This document shows positions 26,258 to 29,208 of a DNA stretch of 64,000 nucleotides, one piece after another (the first letter of the stretch is position 1; each line of letters starts with the position of its first letter). The position numbers were made by a program, and so were the translations under genes. The notes below the pieces were generated by a model. The model worked only from the letters and a program-made list of their open reading frames with translations. It was not told the origin of the DNA and searched no databases. This DNA comes from Halomonas icarae (GTDB lineage Bacteria; Pseudomonadota; Gammaproteobacteria; Pseudomonadales; Halomonadaceae): NCBI RefSeq assembly GCF_009901955.1, contig NZ_WUTS01000001.1, positions 744,001 through 808,000 of the forward strand, in the 5' to 3' direction.

Positions 26258-27052
26258 TTACTTCCAGCCGGGTACCGCCTGAGCGCCAAACAGCTCCTCG
26301 GCCTTGGCCTCGACCGCTTCGGTCTGATAGGCCTTGACCAGCTGCTGGATCGCCTCACGCTCCTCGTCACCGCCACGCACGGCGATCAGGTTGACGTAGG
26401 GGGACTCCGGACCCTCCTTGATCAGGGCATCATCCAGGGTCAGGCCGGCCGGCTGGGCGAAGGTGTTGTTGATAAAGGCCATGTCCACATCGGGCAGTAC
26501 CCGCGGCAGCTGGGCGGCCTCGATCTCGCGGAACTCGAAGTCGCGCGGATTGGCGGCGATATCCAGCGGGGTGGCTTCGAGGTTCTCGGGATCCGCCAGC
26601 TCCAGCAGTCCCAGATTATGCATCAGGATCAGAGAGCGACCCTCGTTCGAGGGGTCGTTGGGCAGGGCGATGGTGGCGCCGTCCGGGAGCTCCTCGATGC
26701 TGTCGTACTTGTCGGAGTAGGCGCCGATGGGGTAGACGAAGGTGTAGCCGGCGACGGCGAAGTCGTAGCCACGATCCTCCACCATGGAGCGCATGTAGGG
26801 CTCGTGCTGGTAGGCGTTGGCGTCGAGGCTGCCGTCGGCCAGGGCGGCATTGGGGGTGACATAGTCGGTGAACTCGATGATCTCAACTTCGAGGCCATAC
26901 TCGCGCTGGGCGATCTGGGCGGCGACCTCCATCACCTGGGTCTCGGGGCCGGCGACGGTGCCGACCTTGATGGCGTGATCGTCGGCGAGGACGGCGCCGG
27001 CGCCCAGGGCCAGGGCGGAAGCGAGGGCGGTAGTGAGCAGTGTCTTGTGCAT
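26258..27052 (-). CDS. metQ: MetQ-type methionine ABC transporter binding protein
   Basis: 264 residues from ATG 27052. The Sec signal peptide [19 protein letters not shown] has no lipobox Cys, unlike E. coli MetQ, so the protein is probably a free periplasmic protein. The NLPA fold is clear: IKVGTVAGPETQVMEVAAQIAQREYGLEVEIIEFTDYVTPNAALADGSLDANAYQHEPYM, then PNDPSNEGRSLILMHNLGLLEL and DMAFINNTFAQPAGL. It binds D/L-methionine for MetNI. It is 76 AT-rich bases after metI. Confidence 0.94.
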   Translation of the reverse strand: MHKTLLTTALASALALGAGAVLADDHAIKVGTVAGPETQVMEVAAQIAQREYGLEVEIIEFTDYVTPNAALADGSLDANAYQHEPYMRSMVEDRGYDFAVAGYTFVYPIGAYSDKYDSIEELPDGATIALPNDPSNEGRSLILMHNLGLLELADPENLEATPLDIAANPRDFEFREIEAAQLPRVLPDVDMAFINNTFAQPAGLTLDDALIKEGPESPYVNLIAVRGGDEEREAIQQLVKAYQTEAVEAKAEELFGAQAVPGWK

Positions 27053-27128
27053 GAAACGGAATCTCCAGGTCTCGAGTCGGTGTAGGTGATGATAACGAAA
27101 TAAGAATAAAAATTTAAATAGCATTTGG

Positions 27129-27762
27129 CTATTTATGATCGCTCTTGCGCACCAGATAATCCCCCAGGCTCTGAAAGCCCTGCACCATGACGACCAGGAT
27201 CGCCACGGTAATCAGCATGATGGTGGGGTTGAAGCGATTGTAGCCGTAGCGGATGCCCAGGTCGCCCAGGCCGCCGCCACCGACGGCACCGGCCATGGCC
27301 GAGTAGCTCACCAGGGTCACGATGGTAACGGTAAGGGCGGTGAAGATGCCGCCCCTGGCCTCCGGCAGCAGTACCTTGTGAATGATCTGCCAGGGAGTGG
27401 CGCCCATCGACTGGGCAGCCTCGACCAGGCCCGGGTTGATCTCGTTGAGCGCACCCTCCACCAGGCGTGCGATAAAGGGAATCGCGGCGATGGTCAGTGG
27501 CACCGCGGCGGCGTTGGTGCCGATGGAGGTGCCCACGAGCATGCGCGTGAAGGGGATGATCGCCACCATCAGGATGATGAAGGGGATGGAACGGCCGATA
27601 TTGGTGACGATGCCCAGTACACTGTTGAGCACCGGCTGGGCCAGCACCTGGCCAGGACGGGTGACATAGAGCAGCACTCCCAGCGGGATGCCCGCCAGGG
27701 CTGAGATCACCCCCGAGATGCCCACCATATAGAGGGTGTCGAGTGTTGCCTTGAGAATCAGT

Positions 27763-27782
<20 letters not shown>
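27129..27782 (-). CDS. metI: MetI-type methionine ABC transporter permease
   Basis: 217 residues with five transmembrane segments. The EAA-type loop reads EAAQSMGATPWQIIHKVLLPEARGGIF (~124-150), followed by the glycine-rich AMAGAVGGGGLGDLGIRYGYNRF that is diagnostic for MetI. It forms the channel with the MetN ATPase. It overlaps the metN 3' end by 20 bases, so translation is coupled. Confidence 0.96.
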
Positions 27783-28824
<1,042 letters not shown>

Positions 28825-28871: not shown

Positions 28872-28898
28872 AAAAAAAGGCCACCCTGGCGGGTGGCC
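28872..28898 (-). terminator. Intrinsic terminator in the metN leader
   Basis: On the minus strand GGCCACCC-GCCA-GGGTGGCC is followed directly by TTTTTTT (28878-28872), a textbook terminator 48 bases before the metN start. It is promoter-proximal to a gene, so it must be conditional. It follows the SAM-II-like aptamer. Confidence 0.88.
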
Positions 28899-28914
28899 AT
28901 CAACGCTGGACACA

Positions 28915-28988
28915 CCCTTTTAGCTGCACTTCACGGCTTGATCGAGTCATGCCGCGGGCGCCCGCAAGCCGGGTTCAAATCGGCGCCG
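28915..28988 (-). ncRNA. SAM-II (SAM-alpha) riboswitch controlling metNIQ
   Basis: On the minus strand the leader has the SAM-II order of elements: a P1 arm (CGGCGCC), GATTTGAACC, then CTTGC, the P1 partner (GGCGCCCG), an extra hairpin CGGCATGA-CTCGA-TCAAGCCG with one A-A mismatch, then GTGCAGCTAAAAGGG. From memory the structurally solved SAM-II RNA has GAUUUAACC, UUGC and GUAGCUAAAAAGGG in the same places. The pseudoknot helix can form: TTGCG pairs with TGCAG, where the known RNA pairs UUGCA with UGUAG, so it covaries. A terminator follows 17 bases downstream. Its GGGTG tail could pair with the CACCC arm of that terminator as an antiterminator (inference). SAM should switch the operon off. 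Confidence 0.82.
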
Positions 28989-29208
28989 TTCAATGTAGCC
29001 GGCAAGCATAGGGGCAGGCCTTCGACCTGTCAATCCTGCCGCATGGCATCCTGTTGGATGCCGCCTGGTGCCACAACATGCTTTGTCGATGGCGTGTTTT
29101 CCAGTGGATATTGTGGAATTGCACGGCGATGGACGGGGAGGGGAAGAATTTCCTACACTCATGCCTCTTTCCGCCCCGTACGGGGGCACCAGCAGCCAAG
29201 GAGACATC

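Follow-up and report, generated by a model that had tools for sequence, protein, structure and literature searches.

The closest described system to the leader analysed here is the SAM-II (SAM-alpha) riboswitch, filed in Rfam as RF00521. In PMC3764141, the pocket nucleotides U10-12, U20, U21, G22, C23, G42, C43, U44 and A45-47 are described as completely conserved, and the crystal register pairs U20-A46, U21-A45 and C23-G42. Terminators behind SAM-II aptamers are already known (PMC1273637, PMC2258182). With regard to taxonomy, Alpha-, Beta- and Gammaproteobacteria are named as the commonest SAM-II holders in PMC2704228, SAM-Alpha counts in PMC3766115 among the motifs seen in three taxonomic groups or fewer, and the gammaproteobacterial cases are called sporadic in PMC2258182. 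Moreover, in the 2014 survey PMC4239095, SAM_alpha is reported only from Rhizobiales and Rhodobacterales, although its table covers Oceanospirillales and Pseudomonadaceae. Tandem SAM-II leaders, of which 44 are reported, and SAM-II/SAM-V leaders have been described as well (PMC9481103).

The presence of a SAM-II aptamer in the metNIQ leader of the window (the whole stretch of 64,000 nt that was analysed) was confirmed. This leader extends from 28987 to 28872 on the minus strand. Along that strand, towards metN-metI-metQ, a sigma-70-like promoter comes first, then the SAM-II aptamer, next a linker and lastly a terminator of 8 perfect bp followed by seven T. The promoter was found in a consensus scan (10/12 matches, 17-nt spacing; one found vs. 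a shuffle mean of 0.1), with the -35 box TTGACA at 29028-29033 and, from the same match, the -10 box TATGCT at 29005-29010, from which we infer a transcription start a few nucleotides upstream of P1. Downstream, and also on the minus strand, metN (27763-28824) encodes the methionine importer ATPase, for which TIGR02314 was the best family (459 bits, E = 9.1e-138), albeit below its cut-off of 499.7. The permease gene metI (27129-27782) exceeded the cut-off of NF008049 (255 vs. 212 bits), and the substrate-binding lipoprotein gene metQ (26258-27124) exceeded that of TIGR00363 (262 vs. 228.85 bits). A methionine/SAM-related gene downstream, as expected of the SAM-II class, is thus present, and a MetN motif was found behind 111 of 117 leaders. 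The sequence blocks quoted in the first-pass annotation were all found on the minus strand at their place and in order, and its description of a SAM-II aptamer with an inserted hairpin and a terminator platform before metNIQ was supported by sequence comparison. It had also placed the 3′ end of the aptamer some 90 bases from the start codon, and the ATG of metN (28824-28822) indeed lies 90 nt downstream of the aptamer GGG. A Met-rich leader peptide was considered and rejected, as the frames across the platform (LMATRQGG..., SVDGHP...) had no run of Met codons and their frame relative to metN differs, judged by eye only.

All parts of the aptamer lie on the minus strand. The two GGCGCC strands of P1 (5′ strand at 28982-28987, 3′ strand at 28957-28962) are supported by covariation, which was followed in 117 distinct metN leaders. 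Between them are found L1 GATTTG (28976-28981), which holds U10-U12 of the SAM pocket as listed in PMC3764141 and whose T positions were invariant in 23/23 leaders, the P2a 5′ strand CCC (28971-28973), backed by one P2a column pair varying on both sides among 69 aptamers, and the P2b 5′ strand TTGC (28964-28967; U20, U21, G22 and C23), which was invariant in 69/69 aptamers, though the extraction pattern demanded TTGC. Further downstream, the P2b 3′ strand GCTAAA (28919-28924) corresponds to G42-A47, of which U44 and A47 contact SAM (PMC3764141), and was invariant in 23/23 leaders. The same holds for the GGG tail (28915-28917), which would be the P2a 3′ strand if SAM is bound and otherwise the 5′ end of an antiterminator. 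Overall, the window has 13 of the 13 pocket nucleotides, and none of them varies among the 23 same-genus leaders. The pocket numbers were assigned to the window on the basis of the crystal sequence and of the motif order. Given the crystal pairs U20-A46, U21-A45 and C23-G42, G22 would pair with C43, so that TTGC faces GC(U)AA and a short P2a (CCC:GGG) is added. Therefore, the pseudoknot TTGCG:TGCAG that had been proposed for the window is in the wrong register when compared with the crystal (PMC3764141), and TGCAG is not conserved, with TTCCC in its place in the sister leader L031. In L3, which in the SAM-II class is short, A-rich and docked on P1, the GAA before GTGC is kept in the window, but the hairpin lies ahead of it.

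The leader was intact upstream of metN in 23 of 25 same-genus genomes, the exceptions being one with a degenerate leader (G003) and an incomplete assembly in which no metN leader was seen (G002). GATTTG, TTGC and GCTAAA were kept across the homologous leaders, as anticipated, but not the longer blocks quoted, since GATTTGA was mostly GATTTGT and CTTGC was ATTGC in 18/23. Two decaying copies before metN were also observed: L017, in which the terminator 3′ arm is altered and the T-run is absent, and L023, without TTGC and without the stretch after P1 (both by eye).

The window itself is not filed as an RF00521 match, as it scored 17.6 bits against a gathering cut-off of 36, with only the P1-L1 half being aligned (model positions 10-42 of 79). 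A lack of a significant RF00521 match had been named in the first-pass annotation as grounds for refutation; that is literally what was found, yet the miss is probably explained by the L3 insert, a 25-nt hairpin between P1 and the GCTAAA strand that breaks the match. A covariance model built from 39 SAM-II aptamers, all of them outside Halomonadaceae (R2), found the window site at E = 1.7e-7 in 64 kb, the next match having E = 3.8, with a span of model positions 3-33 of 56, that is, the P1/L1 half. R2 also matched 24 of the 24 same-genus loci tested (E ≤ 1.6e-4), including the degenerate L023, mostly through the P1/L1 half only. Furthermore, sister genera carry an identical linker and terminator before metN, and there the aptamer has no insert. 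RF00521 scored these insert-free leaders at 47.8 bits (L031/L070) and 36.9 bits (L039/L076), both above 36, and at 29.6 bits (L055/L072), below it. Because of these insert-free sister leaders, the R2 match and the complete set of pocket nucleotides, the leader of the window is, judging by structure and homology, almost certainly a SAM-II riboswitch.

The first-pass annotation had suggested testing related metN leaders for covariation, which was found for P1 and for the inserted hairpin, both beyond shuffles, and for P2a over the 69 aptamers. In the 117 distinct metN leaders, 98.6% of the P1 cells were paired, compared to 94.5% with shuffled partners (maximum 95.6%). For P1 and P2 together, in 69 aptamers sampled across family, order and class, the paired cells amounted to 90.5% (84.1% shuffled), with 63 double changes (18.9 shuffled, 1-18 in slid versions), and covariation was scored at 0.192 (0.077 shuffled, 0.039-0.061 slid). 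P1 is thus supported by covariation, as would be expected of the SAM-II class. The P2 pseudoknot is likewise supported, with two P2a column pairs changing on both sides; in particular, columns 20/95 showed UA in 34 aptamers, CG in 17, GC in 5, UG in 3, GU in 1 and no pair in 9. The four P2b pairs are present but never vary, so covariation is uninformative on P2b, and two of the eight modelled P2 pairs were unpaired in 36/69 and 21/69 aptamers. The patterns of the leader set demanded GATTT, TTGC and GCTAAA, and the exact-scan set demanded the exact platform, so the conservation of those letters in these sets is not a result; moreover, the pattern rules drop degenerate leaders such as L023. When the window was folded without the pseudoknot, a P1-free structure in which the linker GCGTTG pairs with the P1 5′ strand was favoured by 0.6 kcal/mol. 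Across the leaders, P1 was part of the free minimum in 99/117, and only 18/117 had a minimum other than the P1 fold.

The hairpin in L3 (28932-28956, minus strand) is 25 nt long and begins directly after P1. An imperfect hairpin of 8 bp had been described there; the hairpin is present, but it folds with nine pairs instead of eight (six plus three around an A.A mismatch), with a z-score of -2.64 in the window. An insert of 17-45 nt was found in 112 of the 117 distinct metN leaders, with a mean folding z-score of -3.76 and 110/112 below -1 (mononucleotide shuffles). Its five closing pairs were formed in 87.7% of cells, compared to 63.4% when shuffled (maximum 67.7%), and most positions showed several kinds of pair. 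The folding of the insert and the covariation of its closing stem therefore indicate a real helix, largely unconstrained in sequence and in length, and the hairpin seems to act as a helical spacer beside P1, with no set sequence, and not as an element of ligand contact. SAM-II thus tolerates an extra helix in the P1-docking loop, near-universal in one family, so that the structural role of L3 can be put to the test.

Inserts in L3 were also seen in order mates of the family f21, where SAM-II-like RNAs precede an orphan protein of ~102 aa (L139-L150) and 11 of 12 carry the insert (by eye). Two of these proteins were scanned; neither matched Pfam, and in NCBIfam one of them weakly matched MetW (E = 0.022, well under the cut-off). 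At these loci, R2 matched 12/12 (E ≤ 0.0077), while RF00521 gave no match at E ≤ 0.05 in the three tested.

The aptamer is followed by the terminator GGCCACCC-GCCA-GGGTGGCC with T7 (28898-28872, minus strand). The 8-bp stem-loop with the tetraloop GCCA (28879-28898) has a predicted energy of -17.6 kcal/mol and a z-score of -3.83 (0/200 shuffles), one being found in the scan vs. a shuffle mean of 0.4, and the U-tract occupies 28872-28878. The first-pass annotation had suggested a pairing of GGGTG with CACCC as an alternative to this stem, and the suggestion was supported: when isolated, the stretch from GGGTG to CACCC folds as an antiterminator that holds the entire terminator 5′ arm. This predicted antiterminator, GGGTGTGTCCAGCGTTGATGGCCACCC (28891-28917, minus strand), has -10.6 kcal/mol and a z-score of -1.48, with 19/200 shuffles as stable. 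A T-run was present in 118 of 123 distinct leaders, the other five having no run of five T, and the platform was recognisable in 117/118. The GGG..CCC pair closing the antiterminator can form in all 117 leaders with a recognisable platform.

This platform is widespread in the family. The linker motif GGGTGTGTCCAGCGTTGA, with one mismatch allowed, was found in 211 of 275 Halomonadaceae genomes and in 17 of 24 genera, with zero occurrences of a control pattern among the matches listed. An exact platform scan of named genomes found at least 118 stretches, with an aptamer in front in 117/118. Of these 117 aptamer-bearing loci, 116 had a run of five or more T and 111 had a MetN Walker motif within 900 nt. 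A total of 80 of the at least 118 stretches were listed by name (Halomonas, Vreelandella, Billgrantia, Chromohalobacter, Salinicola, Cobetia and others), which we recognise as Halomonadaceae. The outer CCA:TGG part of the antiterminator was considered as the cause of the linker conservation in all genera and was rejected, as it is broken in L031 and L055.

We propose that, with low SAM, the GGGUG tail would pair with CACCC, and the resulting antiterminator (GGGUG.G.CCA...UGGCCACCC) would sequester the whole terminator 5′ arm and let the polymerase continue into metN. With high SAM, the pocket would close, GCUAAA pairing with UUGC (P2b) and GGG with the CCC of L1 (P2a); the tail would then be occupied, GGCCACCC would pair with GGGUGGCC, and transcription would end ahead of metN. 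The same GGG serves as the P2a strand in the SAM-bound fold, and therefore the two states are mutually exclusive. The antiterminator probably has the exact form drawn here. Over the metN leaders, its mean z-score was -1.63 (mononucleotide shuffles), and a duplex test of the switching helix gave z < -1.5 in only 32/112. This helix is nearly invariant among metN leaders, and consequently covariation is uninformative on it. The GGG tail would alternate between the CCC of L1 and the antiterminator by way of this weak helix. Moreover, the terminator, the stronger of the two structures, is predicted by folding with the aptamer tail either free or engaged, and a switch would therefore have to be kinetic. 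Other SAM-II leaders show the switching helix more clearly, with GCTAAAGCG pairing with CGCTTTAGC or similar in the terminator 5′ arm. Among those with a T-run, this arm was complementary to GCUAAA and the tail (z < -1.5) in 22/26, 13/15 and 16/19 leaders of three groups, which are rough and overlapping (L123 and L127 stand in ‘order_other’, and L031 and other metN loci in ‘tandem’).

Overall, from sequence and comparison, the metNIQ leader would be a SAM-triggered transcription OFF switch acting by termination, to which we assign a probability of about 85%. The alternative that survives best, although improbable, is an action of the aptamer on translation at a distance, the AGGG serving as Shine-Dalgarno to the metN start, which lies 90 nt further on, and the terminator only limiting or shaping the transcript, as reported for Sinorhizobium meliloti metA. 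The geometry of that leader is the same: the Shine-Dalgarno of its SAM-II aptamer is reported to matter for initiation at a distance of 74 nt, with a terminator in between on which SAM was predicted to have no effect (PMC9373788); the invariance of GGG in the 23 leaders also fits an action on translation. However, that source predicts no SAM-II-driven antiterminator for metA, unlike the metN leaders, in which GGG can close one with the CCC of the terminator arm throughout the 117 platform leaders, and the retention of the linker motif across the family and of the T-run in 116/117 loci speaks against translational control too. Even less probable is a constitutive terminator in a leader that mainly yields a trans-acting small RNA with the invariant linker TGTGTCCAGCGTTGA as seed. 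Most of the family keeps the linker nearly unchanged, beyond what a weak antiterminator seems to need, the SAM-II leaders of S. meliloti give small RNAs (PMC9373788), and the terminator is predicted in both tail states; but the intact SAM pocket and the aptamer ahead of 117/118 platform loci would be left unexplained. Finally, a chance resemblance in a GC-rich leader, to which only the non-significant RF00521 score of the window lends itself, can be dismissed in view of the E-value of the outside-trained R2, the intact leader in 23/25 same-genus genomes and the covariation of P1, P2a and the L3 hairpin.

Regarding the distribution beyond this platform, a covariance model built with family members (R1) matched 233/275 family genomes and 71/390 order genomes at E ≤ 0.01 (13 of the 71 belonging to the own family), and 162/321 sampled class genomes at E ≤ 0.001, some of these matches being weak and part of them inspected. 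The class as defined in GTDB takes in former betaproteobacteria. In contrast to R1, RF00521 reached its cut-off anywhere in only 9/275 family genomes (stricter filters), which points to an annotation gap in the family, and at E ≤ 1 its matches were mostly noise, found in 148/275 family genomes but also in 7/14 control genomes. SAM-II aptamers, mostly with a terminator, were observed across many families of the class before metZ/metY-like, metK, metF-like, metA and metN genes (L277-L305, L122-L138 and L154-L156), each gene being named by eye after the first long ORF. We incline, with some reserve, towards a distinct SAM-II branch with a free-sequence helix in L3 beside P1, which may have arisen more than once (in the metN leaders of Halomonadaceae and before the orphan ~102-aa protein of f21) and would be part of the reason why current annotation misses a large SAM-II regulon in Gammaproteobacteria (importers, metK, metA, metZ and orphan proteins).

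Other SAM-II loci were met alongside. Tandem aptamers ~110 nt apart occur in the own genome (G000:C1:1885014-1885188; L061:1520-1689) and in relatives, e.g. L025, L030, L032, L035 and L040-L054, the first aptamer with a clear GCTAAAGCG:CGCTTTAGC antiterminator and a terminator, and the second without a nearby T-run. In L061, L064, L068 and L080, the tandem pair is followed by a small orphan ORF that encodes the motif D[IL]VRPELR[ND]D, behind which the own genome has azlC (PF03591, E = 1.2e-34) and then an ORF that by eye resembles azlD. A further protein family of 210-235 aa lies behind SAM-II at L063:929-1561, L066:2136-2813 and L125:730-1437; in L063 and L125, which were scanned, no Pfam or NCBIfam match was found at E ≤ 0.1, and in L066 the protein shares its coding stretch in part with the beginning of a metK-like ORF, which breaks off after 70 aa.

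Moreover, RF02424 (Bp2_287, a Burkholderia sRNA) resembles the reverse complement of a SAM-II leader, as its consensus read backwards contains the SAM-II blocks. It matched the window at 28874-29019 on the plus strand, as well as L306-L315, in all cases below its cut-off. R2 found a SAM-II aptamer on the opposite strand in 10/10 of the fetched loci (E < 1e-16), the sites in L306 and L315 being also in its training set. The Bp2_287 sRNA is described as lying upstream of methionine genes in most genomes (PMC3521395). In addition, the ‘novel’ betaproteobacterial metXZ RNA of PMC4239095, which consists of a pseudoknot and then a terminator ahead of metX/metZ, may, as a guess, be SAM-II.

The comparison with known systems places the window as a variant within a known riboswitch class and not as a new class. 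With SAM-II (RF00521), it shares P1, L1 GATTTG, the P2a/P2b pseudoknot, all pocket nucleotides, a methionine-related target and a terminator platform, and it differs in the 25-nt L3 hairpin, in a score under the Rfam cut-off and in its target, the importer metNIQ, whereas the core target of SAM_alpha in the genomes of PMC4239095 is metY. The surprise expressed in the first-pass annotation was only partly justified. Termination had been considered unusual for SAM-II, but putative terminators are reported on many SAM-II RNAs (PMC1273637); likewise, SAM-II had been regarded as mainly alphaproteobacterial, but the cited papers mention Gammaproteobacteria, and R1 matched half of the sampled genomes of that class. 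Its presence in the class is thus not new, while its breadth there exceeds what the cited surveys suggest. In the literature, searched chiefly through titles and abstract openings among the matches listed, SAM-II before metN, SAM-II in Halomonas and an L3 hairpin were not found, and both metNIQ as a target in Halomonadaceae and the architecture with a covarying L3 hairpin seem to be new. The metNIQ operon of Halomonadaceae thereby gains a putative regulator, beyond the two alphaproteobacterial orders of the 2014 survey (PMC4239095). The family RF01726 (SAM-II long loops) is by name a SAM-II variant with longer loops and is listed in a table row of PMC2864571 for Bacteroidetes and marine samples; it had 0 matches across the whole own genome at E ≤ 10. 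As in the window, the tandem SAM-II and SAM-II/SAM-V leaders of PMC9481103 combine SAM-II with terminator platforms, but the metN leader has a single aptamer, unlike the tandem leaders, a tandem pair being found elsewhere in the own genome. Finally, the S. meliloti metA leader (PMC9373788) likewise presents an aptamer, a terminator and a distant start codon, and differs from the metN leader in that no antiterminator is reported to be predictable for metA.
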